Of a stretch of DNA of 64,000 nucleotides, positions 3,363 to 15,866 are shown one piece after another; position 1 is the stretch's first letter, and each line of letters opens with the position of its first letter. This DNA comes from an uncultured Pelagibacteraceae bacterium (GTDB lineage: Bacteria > Pseudomonadota > Alphaproteobacteria > Pelagibacterales > Pelagibacteraceae). The translations under genes and the position numbers were made by a program. The DNA lies in contig CACJQE010000005.1 in NCBI GenBank assembly GCA_902595465.1, positions 18,140-82,139 on the forward strand, given 5' to 3'. The notes beneath the pieces are model-generated. The model saw only the letters and a program-made list of their open reading frames with translations, did not search any database and was not told the DNA's origin.

Positions 3363-4277
3363 TTATTCTATTGGATAATCCCAAGCATCTCCGCCAATTA
3401 CCTTTGATATAGCAGAAAAATCTTTCGAACTGTTTCCATCCTCACAAAACTTTGAATATATTTCTAATGCCATCTCTCCTAATGGAGTAGATGCATTTGC
3501 ATTTTTAGCACATTCATTTGCAAGTTTTAAATCCTTGTTCATCATACCTGCAGAAAAGCCTGGCTTATATTTATTGTTAGATGGAGTTCCTTCAATTAAT
3601 CCAGGTAAAGGTGGATAAACTGAAATAGGCCAACTATTTCCGGAAGCATTTTTCATAATTTCATGAACTTTCTTTATATCTATATTCAATCTTCTTGCTA
3701 ACATTAATGACTCTGAAGCAGCAATCATTGTTATTCCAAGAGACATGTTGTTACAAATCTTTGCACCGTTTCCGCTTCCTATCTCTCCAGCATGATAAAT
3801 ATTTTTACCCATTAATTTTAAAATAGGTAAAGCTTGATTAAATGCATCATTTGATCCACCAACCATAATATTTAAAGTTGCTTTTTGTGCACCCATCACT
3901 CCACCACTTACTGGTGCATCAATCATCTTAATACCTTTTTCATTTGCTTTCTTTCCTATTTCTTTAGAGGTATCTATATCGATTGTTGAACAATCTATTA
4001 GTAGACAATTTTTAGAAACTTTATCTAGAACACCATTTTCTTTTAAATAAACTTCTTTTGAATGTTTTCCCTCAGGCAGCATAGTGATTACAACAGACGT
4101 TTCACTATTGATTAGTTTTCCAAAATCCTTCTCAACATCAAGATTATTTTCAACTGCTTTATCAATCATTTCTTTAGAAACATCAAAAACCTTAATCTTT
4201 TTCCCTGCGTTCTTTAAATTACAGGCCATTGGGTTTCCCATATTACCAACTCCTATAAAAGCTATATTTTCACTCAT
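3363..4277 (-). CDS. mmsB: 3-hydroxyisobutyrate dehydrogenase-like enzyme
   Basis: A 304-residue beta-hydroxyacid dehydrogenase. The N-terminal Rossmann motif FIGVGNMGNPMA binds NAD(P), DAPVSGGVMGA is the substrate-binding signature, and GSGNGAKICNN carries the catalytic Lys. The C-terminal half has PPLPGLIEGTPS and FSAGMMNKDLKLA, the pattern of true 3-hydroxyisobutyrate dehydrogenases (valine breakdown: 3-hydroxyisobutyrate to methylmalonate semialdehyde) rather than tartronate semialdehyde reductase. It is the last gene of an operon starting with a TRAP transporter, suggesting it oxidises an imported hydroxyacid or its product. Confidence 0.75.
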   Translation of the reverse strand: MSENIAFIGVGNMGNPMACNLKNAGKKIKVFDVSKEMIDKAVENNLDVEKDFGKLINSETSVVITMLPEGKHSKEVYLKENGVLDKVSKNCLLIDCSTIDIDTSKEIGKKANEKGIKMIDAPVSGGVMGAQKATLNIMVGGSNDAFNQALPILKLMGKNIYHAGEIGSGNGAKICNNMSLGITMIAASESLMLARRLNIDIKKVHEIMKNASGNSWPISVYPPLPGLIEGTPSNNKYKPGFSAGMMNKDLKLANECAKNANASTPLGEMALEIYSKFCEDGNSSKDFSAISKVIGGDAWDYPIE

Positions 4278-4289
4278 ATGACATCCTCT

Positions 4290-4511
4290 CTATTTAGTAA
4301 TTTTTTCCACTAATTTATTAACCAACGGTGCAACAAAAGTTGTTGCAACTAATGCAACTGGCAAACTAATAGACCAAGCTTTGAAAAATCTTTTATAATA
4401 AAATTCATCATAACCTGTATTTATAAATGTAATAATTAGGGTCATTAACAAACTCATTCCTAAACCCATAAAAAAAACGAAAAGAATTTTAGAGAATTTT
4501 TTTGGAAACAT
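4290..4511 (-). CDS. DUF2798 family small membrane protein
   Basis: A 73-residue inner membrane protein with two predicted transmembrane helices (about residues 9-30 and 45-65). The pattern FSKILFVFFMGLGMS...TFINTG...AWSISLPVA...PLVNKLV fits DUF2798. Function is unknown. Its ATG shares one base with the stop of the upstream lyase gene (TAATG), so it is translationally coupled to that gene and belongs to the TRAP operon. Confidence 0.75.
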   Translation of the reverse strand: MFPKKFSKILFVFFMGLGMSLLMTLIITFINTGYDEFYYKRFFKAWSISLPVALVATTFVAPLVNKLVEKITK

Positions 4512-5386
4512 TATTTATATTTGTCTTCAATATCGTAATATTCGTTGAAGCCAACTATATCTCTTAAGTCTGAAAATTTAGAAACATTTTTATTATAAAC
4601 TTTATTTTTCATATTATTCAAACATTCTTGCATCGTTTTTACTGATGCACTCATTAGGGTTAGAGGCATTACAGCAATTTTATAACCAATTTCCTCTATT
4701 TCATTAATTTCTAATAATGGGGTTTCACCATCTTCGATTAAATTTAACATATGATGACCTGGAACTTCTTTGATAATTTTTTTCATATCTTCTTTATTTT
4801 TAACAGCTTCAATAAATAAAATATCAACACCAAGTTTTGAAAATGATTGCATTCTTTTAATTGCATCATCTAATCCTCTAGTTGCTATGGCATCAGTTCT
4901 TGCCATTATTAAGATATCTTTATTTCCATATTCTCTTGCGTCCACTGCAGCTTTAATTCTTGAGTTAGCTTCATCAAGATCGACAACATCTTTTCCCTTT
5001 GTGTGACCACATTTTTTTGGCCACTTTTGGTCTTCAATCATCACACCAGCTGCTCCTGCATCCGCATACCCTCTTACAGTTCTAAATACGTTCACTGAAT
5101 TTCCATATCCAGTATCCCCATCAAATATTATTGGAATTGATGTAGCATTGCATATATTTCTTACTTGTTCTGCCATTTCAGAAAAAGAAATTAAACCTGT
5201 GTCCGGCATACCAAGTTTTGTTGATGAAACACTGAAGCCAGACATAAACCCAACTTTCAAACCTTCTCTTTCAATTAATTTTGCTGATAATGCATCAAAG
5301 CATCCAGGCATTACAATTATTTCTGGTCCATCTAATAGTTGTCTTAGTTGTTCTGCTTTATCTTTTGATTTTATTTTTGAAAACAT
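4511..5386 (-). CDS. Isocitrate lyase / PEP mutase family enzyme
   Basis: A 291-residue alpha/beta-barrel enzyme that cleaves or rearranges C-C or C-P bonds of 2-oxo or hydroxy acids. MPGCFDALSAKLIE at the N-terminus, the metal-binding DGDTGYGN near residue 92, and KKCGHTKGK near 125 are family signatures; the Cys of KKCGH is the lyase catalytic residue. PEP mutases that make C-P bonds usually differ in this loop, so a lyase (methylisocitrate, dimethylmalate or oxaloacetate type) is more likely. The position between a TRAP transporter and a hydroxyacid dehydrogenase supports organic-acid catabolism. The exact substrate is not resolved. Confidence 0.75.
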   Translation of the reverse strand: MFSKIKSKDKAEQLRQLLDGPEIIVMPGCFDALSAKLIEREGLKVGFMSGFSVSSTKLGMPDTGLISFSEMAEQVRNICNATSIPIIFDGDTGYGNSVNVFRTVRGYADAGAAGVMIEDQKWPKKCGHTKGKDVVDLDEANSRIKAAVDAREYGNKDILIMARTDAIATRGLDDAIKRMQSFSKLGVDILFIEAVKNKEDMKKIIKEVPGHHMLNLIEDGETPLLEINEIEEIGYKIAVMPLTLMSASVKTMQECLNNMKNKVYNKNVSKFSDLRDIVGFNEYYDIEDKYK

Positions 5387-5388
5387 AT

Positions 5389-6660
5389 TTATAATTTAAA
5401 AGGTATATATAATGCTAGGTCAGGGAATAAGTAAATAACAAATACTGTAAATAACATTATAATGACAAAAGGTATCACACCTTTAGCTATTTCTGACATT
5501 TTTGCTTTACCAATTGCTTGGAGAACATAAATATTTAGTCCAACAGGTGGTGTAATTAATGCACACTCAATCATTAGTGTAAAAATTATTCCAAACCAAA
5601 TTAAATCAATATTCATTGCAGCGATTGAAATCGAAAATATAGGCATCATGATTAAAATTAATGAAAGGGTTTCCATTATAAATCCTAAGATTAGCAAAGT
5701 AATACAAACAACAAGTATAAATAAACCAGTCTCATTAATATTAGTAACTATGAAAGATGATAAATCTTGAGGAATTCTATAAAGCGAAATTGCTTTACCA
5801 AAAACTTTAGCTCCTGCAATAATTATAAATATTGTAACTGTAGTTTTCATTGTCTCCAAACCAGCTTCGATAAAACCTTTAAAATCCAATCTTTTTTTAG
5901 CCACAACATAGATAAATGATATTAAAAAACCAATACCACCTGCTTCTGTTGGTGTATAAATTCCAGCATAAATTCCACCCAGCATAATGAAGGCCATTAA
6001 TAATATTGGCAAACCTCTTTTTGTGTATTTAATTTTTTCTTCTAAAGTACTGGATACATTTTGAACTTCTTTATTAAAAAATTTCACGTAAAAAACTGAA
6101 AAGATAATAAAAAATAATGCTAAAACTATTCCTGGCCCAATTCCTGCAAGAAACATACTTAGTACAGACTCTTCAACAACAAATGCATAAACAATCATTG
6201 GAATTGATGGAGGAATTAAAATCCCTAAAGTTCCACCCGCTGCCAAAATACCTAAAGTAAAGTTTCTGTGATAACCTCTATTAATCATTGCAGGAAATGC
6301 TACAGTTGAGATTGTTGCTGCAGTAGCCACTGATGATCCAGATATAGCAGCAAAAATACTGCAAGAAACTATAGTTGCTATTGCTAAACCGCCTGGAAAA
6401 TTTCCAACCCAGCTTTGAGCAAAATTAAAAAGATCTTCTCCAACACCTGCTTTTAATAATATATTAGACATCATCAAAAACATCGGAACAGCTAATAAAA
6501 TAAAGTTATCTGCCACACTGTAAAAAGTTTGTGGGATCATTAAAGGAGAAATATCTCCAAATAACATTAAACCCAATCCTATAGAACCTAAACCAAATGC
6601 TATTGGCACTCCTAAAAAAAGCACAAAAAATAACAAAAATAAGATTATTGCTACTGTCAT
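5389..6660 (-). CDS. dctM: TRAP transporter large permease
   Basis: A 423-residue polytopic inner membrane protein of the DctM family, the ion-coupled channel of tripartite ATP-independent periplasmic transporters. It shows about 12 hydrophobic segments, the N-terminal LGVPIAFGLGSIGL, the GGTLGILIPPSIPMIVYAF loop and the C-terminal ITPPVGLNIYV motif typical of the family. Length is normal. Its ATG overlaps the dctQ stop by four bases (ATGA). It works with DctQ and DctP to import an organic acid using a sodium gradient. Confidence 0.92.
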   Translation of the reverse strand: MTVAIILFLLFFVLFLGVPIAFGLGSIGLGLMLFGDISPLMIPQTFYSVADNFILLAVPMFLMMSNILLKAGVGEDLFNFAQSWVGNFPGGLAIATIVSCSIFAAISGSSVATAATISTVAFPAMINRGYHRNFTLGILAAGGTLGILIPPSIPMIVYAFVVEESVLSMFLAGIGPGIVLALFFIIFSVFYVKFFNKEVQNVSSTLEEKIKYTKRGLPILLMAFIMLGGIYAGIYTPTEAGGIGFLISFIYVVAKKRLDFKGFIEAGLETMKTTVTIFIIIAGAKVFGKAISLYRIPQDLSSFIVTNINETGLFILVVCITLLILGFIMETLSLILIMMPIFSISIAAMNIDLIWFGIIFTLMIECALITPPVGLNIYVLQAIGKAKMSEIAKGVIPFVIIMLFTVFVIYLFPDLALYIPFKL

Positions 6661-7133
6661 TTAATTATATCTTTGATGTATTTAGGTACTTCGAAAAGCA
6701 CTCTTAATACCAAAAATGCAAAACATAATGGTATCGCAAATTCTGTAAGAAAGGATGGAACATCTAAAATTGTAGAGCTTGTTCTTCCAACTTTAAGAGA
6801 GTCGTAAGCAATTAACCATCCATAATAAAGTACAAATCCACTAAAAATTAAAATGAATATTGCACTTATTAAATCTAATATCTTTTTTCCTTTATCTCCT
6901 ACTTTGTCATATATAACTGTTATTCTGATAAAATCATTTTTATGAAAAGTATAAGTTAAAGCTAAATAAGTAGCCCAAATTTGTAAAAATCGAGAAATTT
7001 CGTTTACCCAAATAGTAGGTGAATTAAATATGTATCTCATGATAACTTCATAAGAAACTATAAAGCCTATCATAATAAATAACGCTGAAGCTAAATAGCC
7101 AGAATATTTTACAATTTTGTCGTAGGTATTCAT
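6657..7133 (-). CDS. dctQ: TRAP transporter small permease
   Basis: A 158-residue membrane protein with four predicted helices and the DctQ hallmark of a conserved mid-region (YIFNSPTIWVNEISRFLQIW). It forms the membrane complex with DctM. An in-frame GTG at 7148 would lie inside the hairpin that follows dctP, so I take ATG 7133 (MNTYDK). The hairpin 3' arm ends in GGGG eight bases before this ATG, so the hairpin may also affect ribosome access. Confidence 0.88.
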   Translation of the reverse strand: MNTYDKIVKYSGYLASALFIMIGFIVSYEVIMRYIFNSPTIWVNEISRFLQIWATYLALTYTFHKNDFIRITVIYDKVGDKGKKILDLISAIFILIFSGFVLYYGWLIAYDSLKVGRTSSTILDVPSFLTEFAIPLCFAFLVLRVLFEVPKYIKDIIK

Positions 7134-7140
7134 TTGAAAA

Positions 7141-7160
7141 CCCCGCACTTAAGTGCGGGG
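7141..7160 (-). terminator. Perfect GC-rich hairpin between dctP and dctQ
   Basis: The sequence CCCCGCACTTAAGTGCGGGG is a perfect 20-base palindrome in otherwise AT-rich DNA. On the transcribed strand it is followed by TTTT, 12 bases downstream of the dctP stop. It looks like a partial (leaky) terminator or an RNA-stabilising 3' stem, allowing more DctP than DctQM. Its 3' arm (GGGG) is close enough to the dctQ ATG to act as or mask a ribosome binding site. Confidence 0.8.
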
Positions 7161-7172
7161 TATTTATACGAT

Positions 7173-8162
7173 TTAAAGTTTGTTTGCAGCTTTTACAAGT
7201 TGATCACCAACTCCACCAACTCCACCTGTTCTAGAAATATAATCATCAATAACAGATGACGATGCTTTTTTAAGAGCAGAAACTTCAGAACTACTTAGGT
7301 TTACAATGTTCATTCCATTTGCTTTTGCTTCTTTGTAAGCCCCAGCTTCAATGTTAGCCATGTCATCTCTAACAGCTTTTTCAGCTACTTTTGATGCTTC
7401 AGCTATAGCGTCTCTTTGTTTTTGAGTTAATGAGCTTAGCCATTTATCATTAGCAACAACAACGAATTCGATATCGCCATGATTTGTAACAGTTAAAGTA
7501 TCCATTACTTGATATAATTTTCTAGATTTTACACCAGATACACCAGTCATACCTGCATCAACTGTATTTCTTTGGTAAGCTAAATATTGCTCAGATCCAG
7601 ATATTAATGCTGGTTTACCACCTAAAGAGCTCACAAAAGCTCCAAGTGTTTTTCCAAATACTCTAATTTTTTTATCTTTAAAGTCAGCTGGAGTTTTCAT
7701 CGGACCACCATTGGATAACATAATTGCTGACCCATAAGCTTGATAATAAAGTGGAACTGCTCCTGTCTTAGCTATTGCAGGATCAAGAATAGCTCTTATC
7801 TCGGATCCAGCTTGAGTTGCTTTTCTTACTTTTTGTTCTGAGTCAAATAAGAATGGAAGATAGAAAACATCAACTTCAGGATTAGTTCCTGCAAATCTTG
7901 TTATAGATGCAACACCAGCTTCGATTGCTCCTGAACCAACAGCTTGTGGAACTTCTTTATCTTTGTAAAGTTGCGCAGAGTCGTAAATCTCAACTTTAAT
8001 GTCTGATCTTGATTCTAATTCTTTTTTAAATACCAAAAGGTTCTGACCTAAGTGAGCCTTTAATGGTAATTGAAGTGTAATTCTCATTTTTGTTTCTGCC
8101 AAACTTGCACTGGCAAAAGAAACGAAAATTAGAGAAAATATTATTCTTTTAAAGATTTTCAT
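7173..8162 (-). CDS. dctP: TRAP transporter periplasmic substrate-binding protein
   Basis: A 329-residue protein with a signal peptide (about 22 residues, cleaved after ASLA) and the DctP-family fold. The helix region KDKKIRVFGKTLGAFVSSLG and the TVDAGMTGVSG segment match solute-binding TRAP subunits. The Arg of KIRVFG sits where DctP proteins bind the substrate carboxylate, so an organic acid is expected. A ribosome binding site (GAGGG) precedes the ATG. It is the first gene of the dctPQM-lyase-DUF2798-mmsB operon, and the promoter should be in the 75-base gap shared with the divergent EamA gene. Confidence 0.9.
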   Translation of the reverse strand: MKIFKRIIFSLIFVSFASASLAETKMRITLQLPLKAHLGQNLLVFKKELESRSDIKVEIYDSAQLYKDKEVPQAVGSGAIEAGVASITRFAGTNPEVDVFYLPFLFDSEQKVRKATQAGSEIRAILDPAIAKTGAVPLYYQAYGSAIMLSNGGPMKTPADFKDKKIRVFGKTLGAFVSSLGGKPALISGSEQYLAYQRNTVDAGMTGVSGVKSRKLYQVMDTLTVTNHGDIEFVVVANDKWLSSLTQKQRDAIAEASKVAEKAVRDDMANIEAGAYKEAKANGMNIVNLSSSEVSALKKASSSVIDDYISRTGGVGGVGDQLVKAANKL

Positions 8163-8237: not shown

Positions 8238-9137
8238 ATGAATTGGATAATTGTAGCTATTTCTGGGGCTTTTTTTCAAAATCTTAGATCAACTTTACAG
8301 AAAAAACTTAATCAAAAAGTATCAACTATTGCATCTACTTATGTAAGATTTGCTTTTGCATTACCATTTGGGACAATTTTATTTTTTTTGTATTTTCAAG
8401 ACTTAAATGTAATCCCTGAAATTCTAAGTCAAAAAAAATTTATTTTTAACGTATTATTAGGTTCAATTTTCCAAATAATTTTTACATTTGTTTTACTTTA
8501 CTTATTTAGATTTGCTAATTTTGTAGTTGGAACTTCATTAAGTAAGACTGAAGTTATTCAGGTTGCGATTTTTGAATATTTGATAATAGGGGACAAATTA
8601 AATAAATTTGGAATAACAGGTATCATCGTATCTACAGTTGGAGTAATTATACTTTCGATTAAAGACTTAAGTTTATTTCTAAAAAACTTATTTTCAAAAA
8701 CAACTTTAATTGGTTTATCTGCAGGACTTTTCTTAGGCTTAAGTGTTGTATATTTTAGAGCAGCAGCATTAACTTTAGAAAATTTTAGTAATAACTTTGA
8801 AAAAGCTATAGCAACACTCTTTTTTGGTCTAGTTATTCAAACAACTTTAGTCACTATTTATTTAATCATATTTGAAAAGTCACAATTTAAAAAATTACAT
8901 GAAAACAAGTACGAATGTTTGTCAGCGGGGTTAGCTGGATTTCTCGCAACATTATCTTGGTTTTATGCTTTTACGTTAATACAATCTTCATTTGTAAGAG
9001 CTATTGGCCAAATAGAATTATTGTTCAGTTACGTATCTTCAAAATATATGTTTAAAGAAAAAGTCAAAATTACTGAAATTTTAGGGATAATTATCTTTGT
9101 TGTGGGTGTACTAATTTTATTACTTAATAAGAACTAA
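8238..9137 (+). CDS. EamA-family (DMT superfamily) transporter
   Basis: A 299-residue inner membrane protein with about ten hydrophobic helices arranged as two similar halves, as in EamA/RhaT-type drug/metabolite transporters. The first half contains TLQKKLNQKVSTIASTYVRFAF and the second ends in EILGIIIFVVGVLILL. Members export or import metabolites such as amino acids or nucleobases; the substrate cannot be told. It converges with the SMR operon, overlapping the last SMR gene by four bases. Confidence 0.8.
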   Translation: MNWIIVAISGAFFQNLRSTLQKKLNQKVSTIASTYVRFAFALPFGTILFFLYFQDLNVIPEILSQKKFIFNVLLGSIFQIIFTFVLLYLFRFANFVVGTSLSKTEVIQVAIFEYLIIGDKLNKFGITGIIVSTVGVIILSIKDLSLFLKNLFSKTTLIGLSAGLFLGLSVVYFRAAALTLENFSNNFEKAIATLFFGLVIQTTLVTIYLIIFEKSQFKKLHENKYECLSAGLAGFLATLSWFYAFTLIQSSFVRAIGQIELLFSYVSSKYMFKEKVKITEILGIIIFVVGVLILLLNKN

Positions 9138-9469
9138 TTAATTCTTCCAAGATAATTAACCATTACCACACCAATAATAATTAAAAAAATTCCAATTAAC
9201 CCATAAATATTTGGTATCTGGTTATATTTAATCATCCCGAAGACTAAAATAGCGGCCACTGTTATACCACTATAAGTAGCATAAGTGAAACCTACAGGTA
9301 TCATAGACATAGCTTTTGCAAGTCCATACATGGTAATACACATAAAAGCTATTGATAATATCGTTGGATTTAATTTTGAAAATCCATCTGAAATTTTAGC
9401 AAAACTATTTGCGGCAATTCCTGTTGATATAGCTAATACTAAATAAATGTAACCAGATAATGGTTTCAT
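9134..9469 (-). CDS. Small multidrug resistance (SMR) family protein, distal member of a pair
   Basis: A 111-residue protein with four predicted helices. It aligns without gaps to the EmrE pattern YIYL...K.S.GF at the N-terminus, and has IPVGFTYATYSG in place of IPTGIAYAIWSG plus the C-terminal GVVMVNYLGR. The membrane glutamate that drives proton/substrate exchange in EmrE (Glu14) aligns with Gly17 here, so ordinary SMR coupling is unlikely. Paired SMR genes usually form heterodimers; this one overlaps its partner by four bases. It is the last gene of a 14-gene operon. Confidence 0.82.
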   Translation of the reverse strand: MKPLSGYIYLVLAISTGIAANSFAKISDGFSKLNPTILSIAFMCITMYGLAKAMSMIPVGFTYATYSGITVAAILVFGMIKYNQIPNIYGLIGIFLIIIGVVMVNYLGRIN

Positions 9470-9801
9470 TTATTTGTTCCTAATAAGTTTACTATTAAGA
9501 CACCCGATATAATTAAAATCAATCCAATTATTGTATAAAAATTTGGTACTTGATTAAATTTTATAACACCAACAGCAGCTGTAGCAATTATACATAGGCC
9601 TGCAAAAGAGGCATATGTTATTCCAACTGGTATACTTTTCATAACTAAAGACAAAGTATACATGCATCCAACAATTGTTACCGCTGTGATTATACTGGGT
9701 ATTAATAATGTAAAACCTTGAGCACTTTTAGCAAAACTATTTGAGGCCGTTCCAAGAATTACTGCGATTAATAAAATTATATAAGCAGTTATATTATTCA
9801 T
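9466..9801 (-). CDS. Small multidrug resistance (SMR) family protein, proximal member of a pair
   Basis: A 111-residue, four-helix SMR protein starting MNNITAYIILL. An upstream in-frame start at 9858 would add 19 residues unlike the family and lies inside the isomerase gene, so it is rejected. IPVGITYASFAG and GVLIVNLLG are family motifs. As in its partner, the position of EmrE Glu14 is Gly (in VILGTASNSFAK). The ATG lies inside the 3' end of the isomerase gene with an 8-base overlap, indicating coupled translation. A heterodimer with the next gene is inferred. Confidence 0.82.
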   Translation of the reverse strand: MNNITAYIILLIAVILGTASNSFAKSAQGFTLLIPSIITAVTIVGCMYTLSLVMKSIPVGITYASFAGLCIIATAAVGVIKFNQVPNFYTIIGLILIISGVLIVNLLGTNK

Positions 9802-10390
9802 TTGCCTTCGACCATTTGATTGCATCTTCCATTCTATCATCTCCCCAGAATATTTCATTTTTTACAACAAATGACGGACTTCCAAATATTTTATTTTTTC
9901 TAGCTTTTTCTGTATTTGATAAATAAATATTATTTATTTCCTCAGAGCTTGCCTCTGAAACAATCTTTTCTTTATCTAAGCTTAGTTTTCTACAGATTTC
10001 ACTCAAGTTGGGTTCAACAGCAGGCTCTTTTCCTTCTTGAAACCATCGTTTATATGTAAGCTGAACGTAATCTACACCCCAGTTATTTTTTAAACCTAAT
10101 ATTGCAATTTTATTAGCTAAATCAAATTCTGTTAAAGGGTAAGGAACTGGTGTTTTGGCAAAAAATCCATAATTTTTTGCTCGTCTTTCTATGTCCCTCC
10201 ACATGTAATCTACTTTATTTTTTTTTTCTTTAGGAAAGGGAATATTGTTCATTTCTTTCATTATTGCTCTCACACTAAAAGGAGTCCAATTAAACTTAAA
10301 TTGATGTTGTTTTTCTGCTTCTAGTGCTCGAGCAACTGAAAGATAAGTATAAGTGCTTCCGATAGAAAAATAAAAATCTATGTTGTTCAC
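9794..10390 (-). CDS. 2-hydroxychromene-2-carboxylate isomerase-like (DsbA/GST-kappa fold) protein
   Basis: A 198-residue thioredoxin-fold protein with a helical insert. The N-terminal DFYFSIGSTYTYL carries the Ser that replaces the redox Cys in HCCA isomerases and kappa-class GSTs. FNWTPFSVRAIMKEMNN and the C-terminal IFGSPSFVVKNEIFWGDDRM match the family. Such enzymes isomerise hydroxychromene carboxylates using glutathione, or act as GSTs. It starts directly after the stop of the upstream NTF2-like gene. A role in processing an aromatic or electrophilic compound is inferred from family only. Confidence 0.8.
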   Translation of the reverse strand: MNNIDFYFSIGSTYTYLSVARALEAEKQHQFKFNWTPFSVRAIMKEMNNIPFPKEKKNKVDYMWRDIERRAKNYGFFAKTPVPYPLTEFDLANKIAILGLKNNWGVDYVQLTYKRWFQEGKEPAVEPNLSEICRKLSLDKEKIVSEASSEEINNIYLSNTEKARKNKIFGSPSFVVKNEIFWGDDRMEDAIKWSKANE

Positions 10391-10711
10391 TTATTTTGAC
10401 ATTGGCGTTGCACCAGTTTCTAAACTAATCATTTTACCATCTTGGTATTTGTAGACTGCCATAACTGCTTCTACATTACCATCATCAAATGTTACGAACG
10501 CATGATGAACACCAACTTCATCATTTTCATAAACAATTCTAGTTTTATCTTGCTTGATATCACCACTCATTGCCCATTTGATCACATCACTTTTAGTTAA
10601 AACACTGCCTGATTTATGCATTGTGAATTTAAAATCATCGTGCAAAAGTTCATTCATTGCTGCTTCATCTTTATTTTTAATTGCAGCACTATATTTTTCT
10701 AATATTGACAT
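10391..10711 (-). CDS. SnoaL/NTF2-like small protein (paralogue of the 13021-13350 protein)
   Basis: A 106-residue protein beginning MSILEKYSAAIKNKDEAAMNELLHDDF, the usual first helices of the NTF2-like fold, followed by beta strands (RIVYENDEVGVHHAFVTF). It shares the start MSILEK, the ENDE-G core and the ending ETGAT with the protein at 13021-13350, so the two are duplicates within the same operon. Such folds act as isomerases, cyclases or binding proteins; no catalytic set is obvious. A good AGGAG ribosome binding site precedes the ATG. Confidence 0.7.
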   Translation of the reverse strand: MSILEKYSAAIKNKDEAAMNELLHDDFKFTMHKSGSVLTKSDVIKWAMSGDIKQDKTRIVYENDEVGVHHAFVTFDDGNVEAVMAVYKYQDGKMISLETGATPMSK

Positions 10712-10723
10712 TTTTTTTCTCCT

Positions 10724-11014
10724 TTATGCTCCTTTAATTATTAATGTATTTGATAATGTATTATCTAATCTAATTTGTCTGATAGGTTTATATATTTCTG
10801 AATTGTACCACTCAAAAACTTTTTCATAAGAGGGGAATTTAATAACAACAGTTCTTGGATATTTCCACTCACCCTCTATGACTTCATTTTCGCCACCTCT
10901 TATGATGTATTCACCGCCAAACTTTTGAGCAGTCGGAGGAGCTTTTTCCAAATACTCTTTGTAATTTTCAGGATTTAAAACGTTAATGTTTAGTATGATA
11001 TATCCCGAAGGCAT
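10724..11014 (-). CDS. DUF1330 family protein
   Basis: A 96-residue ferredoxin-like alpha/beta barrel. The pattern GYIILNINVLNPENYKEY, FGGEYIIRGGENEVIEGEW and PRTVVIKFPSYEKVFEWYNS matches DUF1330 closely. Proteins of this fold dimerise into a barrel and often bind small hydrophobic molecules; no enzyme activity is assigned. It is tightly spaced with its neighbours in the same orientation. Confidence 0.85.
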   Translation of the reverse strand: MPSGYIILNINVLNPENYKEYLEKAPPTAQKFGGEYIIRGGENEVIEGEWKYPRTVVIKFPSYEKVFEWYNSEIYKPIRQIRLDNTLSNTLIIKGA

Positions 11015-11037
11015 TACAAATCCTATTACAAAAGTTA

Positions 11038-11328
11038 TTACATATCTACTTTATTTAACTCGTAGATACTGTAACTTTCCATAACTTCATTCATAATAGG
11101 AGCTGAGACTGGATTGCTTCCATCTATAAACGCTTTAAGTGCAGCTTTATCAGTGACGAAAATTTTAAACATCACTGTTTTTTTGTCAGGTGCAACTGTT
11201 CCAATTGTTTTTGATACATTTGCAACTTTCGATCTTTCTGCCATACCAGCATCCGATTGCATAAAGCCCATAAATTTTTCTAACATACCTTCTTTTAAAT
11301 GAGCTACTACTAGTGTTTCTGTTTCCAT
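11038..11328 (-). CDS. Small ferredoxin-like barrel protein, unrecognised family
   Basis: A 96-residue protein beginning METETLVVAHLKEGMLEKF. It has the beta-alpha-beta order expected for a dimeric alpha/beta barrel and a central strand VMFKIFVTDKAALKAF that resembles the DUF3764-like neighbour at 11356. No catalytic residues stand out and I do not recognise a named family. Its place among similar small proteins suggests a shared origin by duplication and divergence. Confidence 0.6.
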   Translation of the reverse strand: METETLVVAHLKEGMLEKFMGFMQSDAGMAERSKVANVSKTIGTVAPDKKTVMFKIFVTDKAALKAFIDGSNPVSAPIMNEVMESYSIYELNKVDM

Positions 11329-11355
11329 ATTTTATCCTTTCTTTATATTGATTGT

Positions 11356-11646
11356 TTATCCACTAAAATTTTCCATAAAATCATCATGCATCGGTGTAAC
11401 CTTTGCTGAATCTAAATCCACACCTGCTTCAGCTCTTGATGCATGAAGTTCTTTGTCATTTTTAAATGCTTCAAAACCTTCCATGGTTGCATACTTAACG
11501 ATTACAGTAAATTTTGTAGGGTCTTCTTTAGATACACCTGCAAAAATAATAGTAGCACCAAATCCTTTAATTTTTTCAGCATTTGCTTTTACCATATTAG
11601 TCCAAGATGAAAATGATTTTATATTTTCTTCTATTTTAATTATCAT
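11356..11646 (-). CDS. DUF3764-like small protein
   Basis: A 96-residue protein with the hallmark GVSKEDPTK in the middle, preceded by SFSSWTNMV and a GFGATIIFAG strand, the layout of DUF3764 proteins known mainly from marine bacteria. The fold is probably a ferredoxin-like barrel. Function is unknown. It sits 13 bases after the periplasmic cupin gene in the same operon. Confidence 0.65.
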   Translation of the reverse strand: MIIKIEENIKSFSSWTNMVKANAEKIKGFGATIIFAGVSKEDPTKFTVIVKYATMEGFEAFKNDKELHASRAEAGVDLDSAKVTPMHDDFMENFSG

Positions 11647-11659
11647 TTCTGTTTCCTCT

Positions 11660-12058
11660 CTATTTAACTGGATTTACAATCTTCTGACCTTCAACACCGA
11701 TTGCAACTACTATTGCTTTAGCAGGCACATTTCCTATATTTCGAGATTCATGTGCAATACCGACATCTTCAACAAATGCATCACCAGCCTTATAAACTTT
11801 GGTTTTGCCATCCATCGTAAGCTCAATTTCACCTTGTTGGATCATTATTAATACTGGAAAGGAATGTGTGTGAGGTTTTACTGGAGCTCCTACAGGGACA
11901 GTAAATTCAAAAGCTGTTATTTTTGCTTTACCCGATGGATAAACAATTTCATTTCCCATACCAGTTTCACTTGTTGATAATATTCTCTTTACATGACCAT
12001 CTGCAAAGCAATTTGAAGTAAAGATACTTAAGAATAATACGACTATAATTTTTTTCAT
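11660..12058 (-). CDS. Periplasmic cupin-domain protein
   Basis: A 132-residue protein with a signal peptide cleaved after about residue 19 (SNCFA). A single cupin barrel follows: PVKPHTHSF carries the His-x-His of cupin motif 1, and AGDAFVEDVGIAHESRN supplies the motif 2 region with its His. Metal binding is therefore likely. Single-domain cupins act as isomerases, dioxygenases or ligand binders. It is one of two exported proteins in this operon; the other is at 13359. Confidence 0.8.
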   Translation of the reverse strand: MKKIIVVLFLSIFTSNCFADGHVKRILSTSETGMGNEIVYPSGKAKITAFEFTVPVGAPVKPHTHSFPVLIMIQQGEIELTMDGKTKVYKAGDAFVEDVGIAHESRNIGNVPAKAIVVAIGVEGQKIVNPVK

Positions 12059-12075
12059 AAATTTTCCTATATTGT

Positions 12076-12363
12076 TTAACTATTAAAATTGAATACTTCC
12101 TCTTTTACCTCTGTAAATTGATGTGGTTCAAAAAAATCATTCATAGCAGAAAGTTGCTCATTAATAGCATCGGTGCTTTCAGCCATCCAATGACAGAACA
12201 TAGTCATTGTCTCATCAGGAGTGTAGTATGTCATTTGACATTTGGCCTTATCACTTGTTGATGATTCAATTATTTGTTCTCTAGTCATTCCGCCTAAAGT
12301 TTCATTAAATTTTTCTTTCATTTCTTTAGATTTAAACGTGTGAGTTACCATATAGTATTTCAT
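12076..12363 (-). CDS. Small protein, possibly DUF4242-like
   Basis: A 95-residue protein starting MKYYMVTHTFKSKEMKEKF. It has a central CQMTYYTPDETMTMFCHWMAE stretch split by turns, and an EPHQFTEVKEEVF end. The YxxPDE...FCxW pattern followed by a helix and a final TEV strand recalls DUF4242 ferredoxin-like proteins, some of which bind metal. The resemblance is weak and not confirmed. Two Cys and several Met residues could bind metal. Confidence 0.5.
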   Translation of the reverse strand: MKYYMVTHTFKSKEMKEKFNETLGGMTREQIIESSTSDKAKCQMTYYTPDETMTMFCHWMAESTDAINEQLSAMNDFFEPHQFTEVKEEVFNFNS

Positions 12364-12381
12364 ATTACCTTTCAGTTTGTT

Positions 12382-12651
12382 TTAATCTGAGCAAACGCTC
12401 ATCATTGTTGTTTCTTGTTTGTGTCCAGATTCTTCGATTACTTTAGCATTATCTGGGTCTTGCATAAATTTTTGCATTGTATCTGCTGCGGGAGTCTCCA
12501 TGACTATATGAACTTTATTTGGATTATCTATTTCATTTCCAACATAAACTGTTTTTATACCAGCAGCTTCCCTAGGTTCTTTATGGGCATCAAAAGATTT
12601 TTTCCAGTGATCCCAATCTTTTACTTCAAAACTACCTACCATCTTCACCAT
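12382..12651 (-). CDS. Small ferredoxin-like barrel protein, unrecognised family
   Basis: An 89-residue protein from ATG 12651 (MVKMVGSFEVKDWDHW). The DWDHWKKSFDAH start and VHIVMETPAADTMQKFMQD core resemble the neighbouring DUF3764-like proteins. An upstream GTG at 12663 is less likely, because the ATG at 12651 overlaps the cupin stop as TAATG, a coupling junction used repeatedly in this window. No catalytic residues are evident. Confidence 0.6.
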   Translation of the reverse strand: MVKMVGSFEVKDWDHWKKSFDAHKEPREAAGIKTVYVGNEIDNPNKVHIVMETPAADTMQKFMQDPDNAKVIEESGHKQETTMMSVCSD

Positions 12652-13007
12652 TATTCGCCCCACACTCCACCAAACTCGTATGCAATAACTGGCTCATCAC
12701 CAACTACCCATGCATCATGACCTGGTTTAACTGAGTAAGCGCTACCGGCGGTATAAGTAATTTCTGTTCCATCGTCATGTTTTGCACACACAGTTCCTTT
12801 TACAATAACCCCAATATGATTTGCCTGACAACTTGCAGCGTCGGAGTCTATTTTTGGTTTAACATCTTTTGACCATTTCCAACCTGGTTGAAGTTTAATT
12901 TGTACTAACCTCTGTCCACCAACATTCACATGGTACATGTCTGCATTGTCAAATTGTTTAAATTCCTGATCTGGTTTATCAAAACTTTTTGTTTCTGCGC
13001 CACTCAT
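12651..13007 (-). CDS. Cytoplasmic cupin-domain protein
   Basis: A 118-residue single-domain cupin without a signal peptide. The strands run from LVQIKLQPGWKWSKDVKP to HIGVIVKGTVCAKHDDG and YTAGSAYSVKPGHDAWVVGD, where the last part corresponds to cupin motif 2 (PGHDAW). Motif 1 is weak: the usual His-x-His is absent apart from NHIG, so metal binding may differ. Function is unknown. Its stop is fused to the next start by TAATG. Confidence 0.75.
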   Translation of the reverse strand: MSGAETKSFDKPDQEFKQFDNADMYHVNVGGQRLVQIKLQPGWKWSKDVKPKIDSDAASCQANHIGVIVKGTVCAKHDDGTEITYTAGSAYSVKPGHDAWVVGDEPVIAYEFGGVWGE

Positions 13008-13020
13008 AATCCTCCTTAAT

Positions 13021-13350
13021 TTATTCTTTTGGTAATTTTGTTGCGCCTGTTTCTACTTCGATGATTTTTCCATCTTTGAACTTCCAACAACACATTAACG
13101 CTTCTGTGTTTCCATCTTGATAAGTCACATAAGAATGATCAAAACCTATCTCATCATTTTCAAAAAGAATTCTATGTTTAACAGGACTCATCATTCCTTT
13201 ACTTACAGCCTCTATCATACCTTCTTTACCCATATGCACATATTCGCCTTTAAGATGAGAAAACATCTTATATTCTTCATGCACTAACTCTCCAGCTGCA
13301 GCCCCATCCTTTTCCAAAATTGCTTTATTAAGTTTTTCTAAAATTGACAT
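13021..13350 (-). CDS. SnoaL/NTF2-like small protein (paralogue of the 10391-10711 protein)
   Basis: A 109-residue NTF2-like protein. It begins MSILEKLNKAILEKDGAAAGELVHEEY and has the strand RILFENDEIGFDHSYVTYQ and the end EVETGAT, all shared with the protein at 10391-10711. The duplication lies inside a single operon, separated by eight genes. No catalytic assignment is possible from sequence. Confidence 0.7.
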   Translation of the reverse strand: MSILEKLNKAILEKDGAAAGELVHEEYKMFSHLKGEYVHMGKEGMIEAVSKGMMSPVKHRILFENDEIGFDHSYVTYQDGNTEALMCCWKFKDGKIIEVETGATKLPKE

Positions 13351-13358
13351 ATTTCTCC

Positions 13359-13826
13359 TTAGTTTAAATTATAATTTCCTGTAATTTCATTGTAAGAATG
13401 AACAATCCCTTCTTGTGCAGAATTCATACCTTTTATAGTCGCAGTTCCACCACCTGATATATTTTCATACTTTCCAGTTCCACTTACATATTTCCATCTC
13501 AACATTTTTCCAAAAACACCTTTATATTGTGAAGTTGCTGTTCCACCATCTTCAAATTTATTTACGCAAGTACCACTTTCATATCCTTTTCCTGCAAAAA
13601 CAACTATTGAACCTACGCATCTCATTGAAGATTTATCTCCAAAAGTCGTTCCATCTAATGCTTTTAAACCCAACATACCATCATAGATAATTGTAAAATT
13701 ACCTTTATCGTCACCTAAAACCTTTGATGTACCTGCAAAAAAACCGTTTTGTTTAATTTGTCCTTGTTCAGCAAAAGCTGTGCTCGACATAAATATGATA
13801 ATTAAAAAAATATATAATTTTTTCAT
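13359..13826 (-). CDS. Exported beta-rich protein of unknown family
   Basis: A 155-residue protein with a signal peptide (cleavage after about residue 19, SSTAFA). The mature part is rich in Gly and beta-prone residues, with two Cys (in SMRCVGS and ESGTCVNKF) that could form a disulfide. Repeated GG-T strands (FEDGGTATSQYKG, ISGGGTATIKGM) suggest a small barrel. I do not recognise the family. It is the second gene of the small-protein operon and probably acts in the periplasm. Confidence 0.65.
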   Translation of the reverse strand: MKKLYIFLIIIFMSSTAFAEQGQIKQNGFFAGTSKVLGDDKGNFTIIYDGMLGLKALDGTTFGDKSSMRCVGSIVVFAGKGYESGTCVNKFEDGGTATSQYKGVFGKMLRWKYVSGTGKYENISGGGTATIKGMNSAQEGIVHSYNEITGNYNLN

Positions 13827-13832
13827 AAACTC

Positions 13833-14207
13833 TTACTTTTTCATTGCATTGAACATGCTCAATGTGTCGTCAAACGCAATAAACAATGTCAGTTTACCAT
13901 CATCGCTTACTTCAAAATAATGACCAAAAATAGTATCCATGCCATCTGCCTTAGCAATTGCTTTAACAAACACTTTATTCCCCTCACTTATCATCATATC
14001 AGGGGTTACTGAAAAATTACTCCATAGATCTGGAACTTGCATCATGGTTTTCATATATGCTTCTTTGCCTTTATGAGTTCCTGACATTGGATGCTTATCT
14101 CCAGGATAAATCCAAGTGATATCATCATGTACCATTTCCATAAATCCCTCCATATCTCCTTTGCCAAAAAGTTCATATCCTTTTTTAACTACTTCTTTTG
14201 CGTTCAT
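13833..14207 (-). CDS. SnoaL-like (ketosteroid-isomerase-type) protein
   Basis: A 124-residue NTF2-like protein: MNAKEVVKKGYELFGKGDMEGFMEMVHDDITWIYPG is split over the first helices and strand, followed by SGTHKGKEAYMKTM. This is the classic SnoaL_2 layout, found in enzymes and binding proteins for small hydrophobic molecules. It is the first gene of the operon that runs down to the SMR pair at 9134. The 82-base gap before it contains an inverted repeat. Confidence 0.78.
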   Translation of the reverse strand: MNAKEVVKKGYELFGKGDMEGFMEMVHDDITWIYPGDKHPMSGTHKGKEAYMKTMMQVPDLWSNFSVTPDMMISEGNKVFVKAIAKADGMDTIFGHYFEVSDDGKLTLFIAFDDTLSMFNAMKK

Positions 14208-14255: not shown

Positions 14256-14273
14256 TGTAATGGTTTTATTACA
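14256..14273. promoter_or_regulatory. Inverted repeat upstream of the small-protein operon
   Basis: TGTAAT and ATTACA lie six bases apart in the 82-base gap between cysK and the SnoaL-like gene at 14207. The symmetric arms could be a regulator site for the 14-gene operon, or a weak hairpin at the end of cysK. Nothing else is visible in the gap. No known regulator is assigned. Confidence 0.35.
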
Positions 14274-14289
14274 GTGCTGGTATGCGTGA

Positions 14290-15291
14290 TTATATCCAGT
14301 CGGGATAAGGTAAACCTTTTTCAATTAAAAAAGGTTTATTAAACATCTTTGAGTTGTATCTGTCTGATTTGTCGCAAAGAATAGTGACAATAGTTTTTCC
14401 TGGGCCTAGTTTTTTACCCAATCTAATTGCACCTGCAATATTTACTCCACAACTTGTTCCAAGACTTAAACCTTCATTTTTGATTAAATCATATAGTATT
14501 GGCAAAGATTCTTTATCTTCAATTGAAAAGGCTCCATCTATTTTTGCTTCTGCAAAATTAGCAGTTACTCTGCTGGATCCAATACCCTCAGTTATTGATC
14601 CACCTTCAGCTTTTAACTCACCGTTTTCAATGTGATTGTAAAGAGAGGATCCCTTTGGATCTGATAGATAAATTTTTATATCTTTATTTTTTTCTTTTAA
14701 AAAACTACTTACTCCACCAATTGTTCCTCCAGTTCCAGAAGAACATACAAATCCATCAACTTTTCCTTCCGTTTGCTCCCATATCTCAGGACCCGTTGTA
14801 TAGTAGTGACCTTTAGAGTTTGCGGTATTATCAAATTGGTTTGCCCAGACAACTCCATGATTATTTGAACTTTTTAGCTCCTCAGCCATTCTAGCAGCAA
14901 TTTTAACAAAGTTATTTTCATCTTTATAAGGTTTTGGTGGAACCAATTTCAAATCTGCACCAATATTTCTTAATGTATCTTTTTTTTCTTGAGTTTGATT
15001 ATCGTTCATTACAATAATAGTTTTGTAACCTAGTGAATTTCCTAATAAACATAATCCAATCCCAGTATTTCCTGCAGTACCTTCCACAATTATTCCGCCT
15101 TTAGATATTAATTTTTTTTCTTCAGCGTCTTTTATAAGAGCAAGTGCTGCTCTGTCTTTTACAGATCCTCCTGGATTTAAAAATTCAGCTTTACCATAAA
15201 TATTACAACCAGTTATCTCAGATGCAGCTTTTAGTTTTATTAAAGGAGTATTTCCAATTGATTGGATAAAATCATCCTTGTAATTTTTCAT
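14290..15291 (-). CDS. cysK: Cysteine synthase (O-acetylserine sulfhydrylase)
   Basis: A 333-residue PLP enzyme of fold type II that makes cysteine from O-acetylserine and sulfide. The PLP Lys is Lys45 in NPGGSVKDRAAL. VEGTAGNTGIG binds the substrate and SSGTGGTIGG the PLP phosphate. It overlaps the cysE stop by one base (TAATG), so the acetyltransferase and synthase are made from one operon. The C-terminus (IEKGLPYPDWI) extends slightly beyond the core family. A CysM or cystathionine beta-synthase relative is possible but less likely given cysE. Confidence 0.88.
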   Translation of the reverse strand: MKNYKDDFIQSIGNTPLIKLKAASEITGCNIYGKAEFLNPGGSVKDRAALALIKDAEEKKLISKGGIIVEGTAGNTGIGLCLLGNSLGYKTIIVMNDNQTQEKKDTLRNIGADLKLVPPKPYKDENNFVKIAARMAEELKSSNNHGVVWANQFDNTANSKGHYYTTGPEIWEQTEGKVDGFVCSSGTGGTIGGVSSFLKEKNKDIKIYLSDPKGSSLYNHIENGELKAEGGSITEGIGSSRVTANFAEAKIDGAFSIEDKESLPILYDLIKNEGLSLGTSCGVNIAGAIRLGKKLGPGKTIVTILCDKSDRYNSKMFNKPFLIEKGLPYPDWI

Positions 15292-15866
15292 TATTCAATT
15301 TCCTCACTGCCATTAGTTACAGCATAAGGTTTAAATTCTTCAGTTGCTGTTCCAACATTCTTAGCAGGTATTCCTACCATAACAGCATTTTCAGGAACAT
15401 TTTTTGTGACAACTGCATTCGCACCAATTTTAGCATTTTTTCCAACTATTACTGGCCCTAAAATTTGAGCACCTGAACCAACTACAACATTGTCACGAAG
15501 AGTAGGGTGTCTCTTAACTTCTCTTTGATCATTAGAATTAATACTAGGGGATATTCCACCTAAAGTAACCATATGATAAATAGTTACATTGTCTGCGATG
15601 TCTGATGTTTCTCCAATTACAACGCCCATACCATGATCAATAAATAAATTTTTTCCAATCTTTGCTTTAGGGTGAATTTCAATACCGGTCAAGAAACGAG
15701 AAAACTGAGAAATAATTCTTGCGATAAGATCAAATTTTGCAGTAGCAAAAAAATTTGCAATTTTGTGAAAAAATATCGCCTTAACTCCAGGATAAGTTAA
15801 AATTAGACTTAACTTAGATTTTGCAGCAGGATCTCTGTCAATAATAGATTGCAAAAAGTCATTCAT
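15291..15866 (-). CDS. cysE: Serine O-acetyltransferase
   Basis: A 191-residue enzyme making O-acetylserine from serine and acetyl-CoA. The N-terminal helices include [19 protein letters not shown] left-handed beta helix follows: [24 protein letters not shown] contains the catalytic His/Asp region, and [20 protein letters not shown] shows the hexapeptide repeats. The short N-terminus resembles the SAT/EpsC group rather than the longer E. coli CysE. It is the first gene of the cysE-cysK operon. Confidence 0.9.

Follow-up and report, generated by a model that had tools for sequence, protein, structure and literature searches.

In SAR11 bacteria, the hypervariable regions HVR1-4 and the replacement-type flexible genomic islands share recurrent flanks, a content that varies between strains and segments that are nearly identical in otherwise diverged genomes; thus, for HVR2, the available text of Wilhelm et al. 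(2007, PMC2217521) gives an identity of 99.96% versus 97.4% overall. The same features were found at a locus in a 64,000-nucleotide stretch of DNA (hereafter the window) from a SAR11 (Pelagibacteraceae) genome represented by a 1.11-Mb assembly that is 84% complete (GCA_902595465.1, contig CACJQE010000005.1, positions 18,140 to 82,139). A row of fourteen small genes (a1 through n14), all on the minus strand, occupied positions 9134-14207 of the window downstream of cysK and cysE, which lie on the same strand, and ended in two genes of the SMR family. We interpret this row and its counterparts in relatives as a strain-variable set of genes, usually situated between cysE-cysK and SMR genes behind a conserved element, with products that likely handle different small compounds, and give this reading a probability of about 0.5. 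The architecture, variability and exchange of the row are regarded as highly probable, while the chances that its products serve in small-molecule handling, as their families and predicted folds suggest, are about even. The locus likely behaves like a flexible genomic island that acts as one small-protein operon.

Counterparts of the row were sought in 141 loci, comprising the window, 60 stretches from relative genomes and 80 named loci. A deck was defined as the interval from cysK to the SMR-type gene or genes, the presence of the latter being required by definition. Such an interval was present in 79 of the 141 loci, and 76 non-identical decks were left after 3 identical duplicates had been dropped. 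The 62 loci outside the deck counts comprised cut contigs, copies of d4 or SMR at other places and deck-type runs without cysK, of which there were at least four. The sampling was not random, 100 loci having been chosen via matches to d4 and 40 via matches to SMR. Among the best 80 named relatives of d4, nearly all carried the name Pelagibacteraceae or Candidatus Pelagibacter, and their isolate names are presumably those of single-cell genomes. The d4 family was found in 40 of 121 relative genomes, and an SMR gene of the m13 type (at least 70% identity) in 40 of 73 genomes of the same genus, many of which are incomplete.

Across the decks, the frame recurred and the element at the head of the row was conserved while the content varied. 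Usually, cysK was present on one side and one or more SMR-type genes on the other, an NTF2-like gene was nearly always included, and about 20 families of small proteins (mem26, exC14, F46 and F90 being our own labels) supplied the contents in between. Most of the strains compared had different selections of genes, and the 76 decks comprised 62 distinct gene strings. NTF2-like genes of the c3/k11 type occurred in 73 decks and i9, the commonest variable gene, in 64, followed by DUF1330 (46 decks), d4 (45, a frequency inflated by the d4-based sampling), mem26 (42), exC14 (41), dsbA (35), DUF3764 (34), b2 (32), GYD (31), DUF2798 (31), f6 (30), a1 (29), F46 (22), cupredoxin (14), TPR (13) and g7 (12). 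Decks contained 5 to 14 genes when SMR genes were included and encoded proteins of mostly about 95-155 amino acids (aa). Nearly all deck genes (761/786) had the orientation of cysK, the exceptions being 22 mem26 and 3 SMR genes, and cysE, nearly full-length like cysK, was located directly upstream of it in 73 of the 76 decks. Independent-pair tests of co-gain gave too few events to weigh among the pairs of families listed.

The original prediction assigned the fourteen genes to one dedicated pathway. According to such a reading, the barrels and cupins would act as successive enzymes on one compound and the SMR pair would export the product, in keeping with the common strand and tight spacing of the genes and with folds that are common to cyclases and monooxygenases. 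Gene order is also mostly kept in relatives; thus, neighboring genes were not scattered but appeared in the majority order in 2127 of the 2261 comparisons made for single-copy pairs, and 28 gene pairs were found in both orders (e.g., d4/i9 19:23 and f6/i9 15:14). However, every family except the NTF2-like and SMR genes was missing from at least 12 of the 76 decks. On a quick tree of cysK and cysE with 73 tips (i.e., decks with nearly full-length copies of both), the minimum number of presence changes for each of the 16 families tested ranged from 2 to 20 (b2, 20; d4 and f6, 16; DUF3764, dsbA and DUF2798, 10; DUF1330, 9; GYD, exC14 and TPR, 8; a1, F46 and i9, 7; mem26, 5; g7 and cupredoxin, 2). 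Moreover, the deck of L151, from a complete 1.34-Mb genome, consisted of exC14, mem26, an NTF2-like gene, DUF2798, a gene for a 184-aa protein and SMR and thus contained no ferredoxin-like barrel or cupin, and the deck SMR proteins lack the Glu required for coupling, as described below. The C-terminal domain of type III polyketide synthases was not found in the 84%-complete genome of the window, which also counts against the pathway and led to rejection of polyketide synthesis of type III. Because the families come and go separately, a linear pathway was set aside as the main reading and is considered distinctly unlikely. A set of independent small-molecule proteins was preferred because 12 of the 17 commonest families have small ligand-binding, metal-binding or cyclase/monooxygenase-type folds, because these families were gained and lost separately and because the genes are under purifying selection.

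Comparisons of deck and flank sequences indicate that strains have exchanged segments of the deck, because deck genes were near-identical between strains with diverged cysE-cysK far more often than flank genes were. Near-identity was scored at third positions in 2177 pairs whose cysK and cysE were clearly diverged, with 14 single-copy deck families set against nine flank genes and the NTF2, DUF3764, SMR and DUF2798 families left out. The sums were 89 of 6542 comparisons for deck genes and 4 of 4769 for flank genes, although these counts are not independent, since they came from six groups of related strains with fewer events than counts, and short genes are favored. By family, near-identity was noted for a1 (16/274), b2 (15/402), d4 (16/796), f6 (12/280), g7 (6/41), i9 (8/1555), GYD (5/497), DUF1330 (5/744), cupredoxin (2/101), dsbA (2/441), F46 (1/186) and TPR (1/58). 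In comparisons of the window with L053-L055, synonymous divergence (dS) of the genes from a1 to g7 was 0.00-0.03 versus 0.19-0.29 for the flank genes together. In bins of 300 bases, the region from 11.7 to 13.8 kb was 99-100% identical and the other bins were 84-100% identical, mostly 90-98%; for L055, near-identity continued as far as about 15.6 kb, cysK and cysE included. The flanks of L132, L133, L166 and L167 were equally near to those of the window, yet most of the block between 11.7 and 13.8 kb was absent from these loci. The ratio of nonsynonymous to synonymous divergence (dN/dS) between the window and L053-L055 was 0.07-0.08 for the deck, which indicates purifying selection on deck genes; values of 0.28-0.29 against L132 and L133 arose partly from the comparison of paralogues.

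The SMR-type genes of the decks differ from known exporters at a critical position. In EmrE, Glu14 is essential for the coupling of substrate and proton transport. Gly occupied this position in all 65 unique SMR proteins of a first set, in all 127 deck SMR proteins (105 unique), including both from the window, and in 17 of 18 other SMR proteins encoded by these loci. The exception, from L171, was a separate SMR protein of a complete genome, and the genome of the window likewise contains a separate SMR gene that keeps Glu (L197, 759-1091; by eye against L171). Deck SMR proteins also have Phe or Tyr at Trp63 and an invariant Asn at Thr18 (EmrE numbering). Two related SMR genes, adjacent or parted by DUF2798, were present in 46 of the 76 decks. 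The membrane protein encoded by DUF2798 is 73-75 aa long, and its gene separated or preceded the SMR genes in the 31 decks that carried it (L036, L040, L079 and others). The deck pair thus resembles the paired exporters EbrAB and MdtIJ, which are homologues of EmrE type, in SMR fold (by Pfam) and in gene pairing but differs from EmrE, EbrAB and MdtIJ by Gly in place of Glu14, Phe or Tyr in place of Trp63 and Asn at Thr18. The efflux role included in the original prediction is weakened by these findings; because the coupling Glu is absent, an efflux reading is doubtful and, on the present sequence evidence, the pair should be assigned to the SMR fold family rather than called an efflux pump.

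The element at the head of the row, CGCATAnC[AT]G-N3-TGTAAy-AAAAyn-rTTACA, was located at 14256-14286 on the minus strand between cysK and the deck. It was scored in the 46 cysK-adjacent decks with a gap of 55-110 bases, 8 decks with other gaps being left unscored (median gap 82 bases, quartiles 68 and 84, n=54; 82 bases in the window). The anchor GCATAnC[AT]G, within the element or a close variant of it, was present directly after the cysK stop codon in 43 of these 46 decks, followed by a T tract, and was absent from L137, L151 and L154; the full palindrome was present in 37 of the 46 (38 of all 76 decks). The anchor was present whether the first gene was a1, exC14, f6, b2 or g7. A GCATAnCnG box was also found in the shared upstream region of 17 of 22 decks that open beside a divergent mem26 gene, the decks without it being those of L060, L066, L149, L150 and L158. 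The element could be an operator, part of a promoter or the cysK terminator. In the genome of the window, there was a single exact site, and a search allowing up to 2 mismatches gave 14 sites versus 8 in the reversed control; thus, no regulon is claimed. A second match to the pattern with 2 mismatches, of the CACATAAA..TTTTGTAATAAA type, recurred at another place in many genomes and was almost identical between them (e.g., G012:C1:843366). Sulfur limitation was considered and rejected as an explanation; according to PMC5069961, cysK and cysE are not induced by sulfur stress.

Several observations weigh against the reading preferred here. Decks looked less like free shuffles than like selections from an ordered list, and the frame was not universal; thus, in L061, L138, L159 and L165, a deck-type run that ended in SMR was preceded by other genes at the place of cysK. 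To these may be added the non-random choice of loci, the non-independence of the near-identity counts and the complete lack of near-identity for exC14 (0/476) and mem26 (0/691). The dN/dS of the deck exceeded the flank value of 0.03. Short gaps alone are weak evidence for an operon because the flanking genes on the same strand are also tight (median gap 8 bases, 67% of gaps no longer than 30 bases, n=607, versus 10 bases, 85% and n=685 within decks). The head element, with its 6-base stem and T tract, may also be a cysK terminator, and no gene for a regulator was seen next to the row. The glutathione link considered below rests on the dsbA family in 35 of the 76 decks and a reductase in 2. Finally, exC14, mem26, F46, TPR and DUF2798, which are five of the 17 families found most often, do not have known ligand-pocket folds. 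A few guest genes were encountered, encoding proteins like L-lactate dehydrogenase, 3-hydroxyisobutyrate dehydrogenase and an enzyme of mandelate-racemase type. Together with the high turnover and recent exchange, these last two observations are also expected of a recombination hot spot that gathers unrelated small genes with a shared promoter as their only link. This explanation is thought unlikely in view of the folds of the other 12 families, the purifying selection on deck genes and the clustering of members of the same set at another site. Runs of GYD-a1-d4-F90-DUF3764, GYD-a1-d4 and a1-d4-DUF3764 were found in a second SAR11 family at a site without cysK, where an f6-type gene was also among the grouped deck kinds; at some d4 loci, no deck family was present beside d4.

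Further observations concern individual genes. The enzyme of mandelate-racemase/enolase type (428 aa) was encoded between GYD and an NTF2-like gene in L040, L101 and L116, the decks of L040 and L101 being the same. In other SAR11 genomes, a copy of d4 preceded the gene for a protein of 121-124 aa, which is presumably GFA-like. DUF3764 was rare in the class, being present in 5 of 289 genomes including that of the window; in the other four, one copy formed a gene pair with an NTF2-like gene (769-1521 of L179, from another order of the same class) and the rest had no deck family beside them.

In the window, all fourteen open reading frames (ORFs) of the row were confirmed on the minus strand, with neighboring genes overlapping slightly or lying no more than 27 bases apart. 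The first gene, a1 (13833-14207), encodes an NTF2-like protein (PF12680, SnoaL_2, 45.4 bits, cut-off 27). Two further NTF2-like proteins, the close paralogues c3 (13021-13350) and k11 (10391-10711), were 45% identical, and k11 exceeded the cut-off of 25.2 for DUF4440 (32.1 bits) while c3 fell below it (21.3 bits). Of the five ferredoxin-like barrels, at least five having been predicted, e5 (12382-12663) and h8 (11356-11646), which are weakly alike, matched DUF3764 (PF12594, 45.8 and 26.7 bits, cut-off 24) and j10 (10724-11014) matched DUF1330 (PF07045, 101.9 bits, cut-off 23), whereas the match of f6 (12076-12363) to the SCO4226-like family PF14026 was below cut-off (21.3 versus 28.5 bits) and i9 (11038-11328), which belongs to no Pfam family, was assigned by predicted fold. 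Of the two predicted cupins, g7 (11660-12058) was above the cut-off of 27.2 (PF07883, 53 bits) and the small cupin-like d4 (12651-13007) below it (Cupin_2, 16.8 bits). The beta-rich protein b2 (13359-13826), which matched no Pfam family, agreed with the prediction of an exported protein, but it was not the single one, since g7 also has an N-terminus like a signal peptide (by eye). The predicted isomerase of DsbA fold was identified as l12 (9794-10390; PF01323, 91.9 bits), and the two SMR proteins as m13 (9466-9801; PF00893, 56.4 bits, cut-off 23.7) and n14 (9134-9469; 67.9 bits), which are 45% identical; Gly17 of n14 is opposite Glu14 of EmrE. The start of m13 is probably at 9801 (MNNITAY...) rather than 9858.

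Upstream of the row, on the same strand, are the usual neighbors, a gene for a cysteine synthase-like protein (cysK, 14290-15291; PF00291, 233.5 bits) and one for a serine acetyltransferase-like protein (cysE, 15291-15866; Hexapep). On the downstream side, an EamA gene runs convergently and ends on n14. Beyond EamA, at 3363-8162 on the minus strand, are genes for a TRAP transporter (DctP by PF03480; DctQ and DctM by eye), together with isocitrate-lyase-family-like and hydroxyisobutyrate-dehydrogenase-like genes (by eye). No tRNA gene and no Rfam match, hence no known RNA element, was present in the 64-kb window, a consensus scan revealed no terminator-like site of the minus strand inside the row, and no integrase was noticed in the ORFs near the deck, where no profile search aimed at integrases was made; a tRNA gene or an integrase is common, though not obligatory, at the edge of a flexible genomic island. 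Defense islands commonly occupy a fixed place and vary in content between strains, and the deck might accordingly vary as protection against phages or competitors. This explanation is considered highly improbable: ten deck proteins (all but b2, g7, k11 and m13) gave no PADLOC match, no nuclease was noticed in decks, and viral contigs contained no relative of i9 or b2 and one partial match of 28% to d4. The same results led to rejection of a phage origin and of assignment to a defense system.

The folds of b2 and i9, predicted at high confidence, are shared with cyclases, isomerases and monooxygenases. For i9, the AlphaFold model (pLDDT 96) has a ferredoxin-like alpha-beta fold, and its Foldseek matches (E 2.7e-4 to 9.7e-4 for the top six) included LsrG, olivetolic acid cyclase and ABM and NIPSNAP folds. 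The predicted structure of b2 is an eight-stranded barrel of allene-oxide-cyclase/dirigent type. In d4, residues H64, H97 and D98 were invariant in 8 homologues; a cupin of DMSP-lyase type was rejected for d4, the cupin searched, when phmmer against the Protein Data Bank (PDB) gave nothing at E<=1. Several barrels might be heme-degrading or metal-binding proteins, and a role of the deck in tetrapyrrole or metal handling would be consistent with the presence of an HmuQ-like family in two decks, with the sub-threshold match of f6 to a nickel family and with the exported cupredoxin in 14 of the 76 decks. Such a role is nonetheless thought quite improbable, as two HmuQ-like decks are a small minority, no heme or metal transporter was noticed in decks, and the other barrels of the window matched no heme or metal family of Pfam.

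Links to thiol chemistry were noted as associations, and some deck proteins are perhaps glutathione-linked. In 2-hydroxychromene-2-carboxylate (HCCA) isomerase and kappa-class glutathione S-transferase (GST), an N-terminal Ser activates glutathione. The closest PDB entry to l12 was an HCCA isomerase (2imd; E 1.5e-12), and Ser12 of l12 aligned with Ser11 of that protein; l12 thus resembles these enzymes in DsbA fold and N-terminal Ser. Unlike the setting of HCCA isomerase, however, the surroundings of l12 contained no noticed gene of a naphthalene-type pathway. In the decks of L149 and L158, a protein of the glutathione reductase family, a small exported protein and the HmuQ-like heme-degrading barrel replaced nearly all other barrels. 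In L158, the reductase scored 575.6 bits, which is above the cut-off of one model (480) and below those of two others, and the HmuQ-like protein scored 111.7 bits, which is below the cut-off of 130. A glutathione synthetase family was represented in the genome of the window. Beside cysE is a gene for a protein of metallo-beta-lactamase fold, nearest to models of hydroxyacylglutathione hydrolase and of sulfur transferase/dioxygenase but below their cut-offs.

In the preferred reading, a single transcript would start at the head element and cover the whole row, and its products would likely each act on a different hydrophobic or electrophilic small compound by binding or converting it, every barrel working by itself and not as one stage in a common pathway. 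Glutathione-type thiols and the SMR-like membrane protein or proteins are predicted participants. The isomerase-like l12 would use glutathione, and exported members would work in the periplasm (b2 and g7 in the window; exC14, cupredoxin and TPR in other strains). The SMR pair could move a neutral or lipid-like product or work in a way that does not involve proton antiport. By homologous recombination within the conserved ends, strains could trade sets, and each lineage would thereby be tuned to the compounds present in its surrounding water. The most specific form of this proposal, i.e., a swappable chemical-handling repertoire that combines one promoter, stand-alone barrels, an SMR pair free of the coupling residue as a new passive or lipid-like transporter and sharing by recombination at the cysK and SMR ends, is considered rather unlikely. 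If true, SAR11, among the most streamlined of free-living cells, would carry a combinatorial array for detoxification or scavenging that has no named counterpart. That decks differ between most of the strains sampled suggests that surroundings differ enough between niches to make such an array worthwhile. The deck gives a concrete list of proteins for screening against marine metabolites, with which a strain-level chemical niche in SAR11 becomes directly testable, and it provides a naturally occurring class of SMR proteins that lack a residue thought essential for coupled transport.

In line with the original prediction, no named pathway of this composition turned up in the literature searched, and no description of the locus was found there, including the available portions of PMC2217521, PMC5069961, PMC7542561, PMC7318151 and PMC12636525. 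Certain known systems resemble parts of the deck. Thus, e5, h8 and j10 (by Pfam) and i9 (by predicted fold) are alike to dimeric alpha-beta barrels such as ABM, GYD, DUF1330, DUF3764, LsrG and polyketide cyclases, but differ from these in that five different barrels occur in one row and are gained and lost separately, and in that i9 has no Pfam family. Likewise, b2 is less than 20% identical to allene oxide cyclase, dirigent, DUF3224 and Diels-Alderase barrels and to pyocyanin demethylase, the likeness being one of fold. With respect to the hypervariable regions of SAR11, the words cysE, cysK and multidrug are absent from the main text of PMC2217521, and the gene tables given there for HVR1, HVR3 and HVR4 of HTCC1062 do not fit the deck. 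According to the same source, as far as it was available, HVR1-4 carry genes for surface sugars, transport, secretion or unknown functions, whereas the deck is a row of small-protein genes, largely on a single strand, behind one element.

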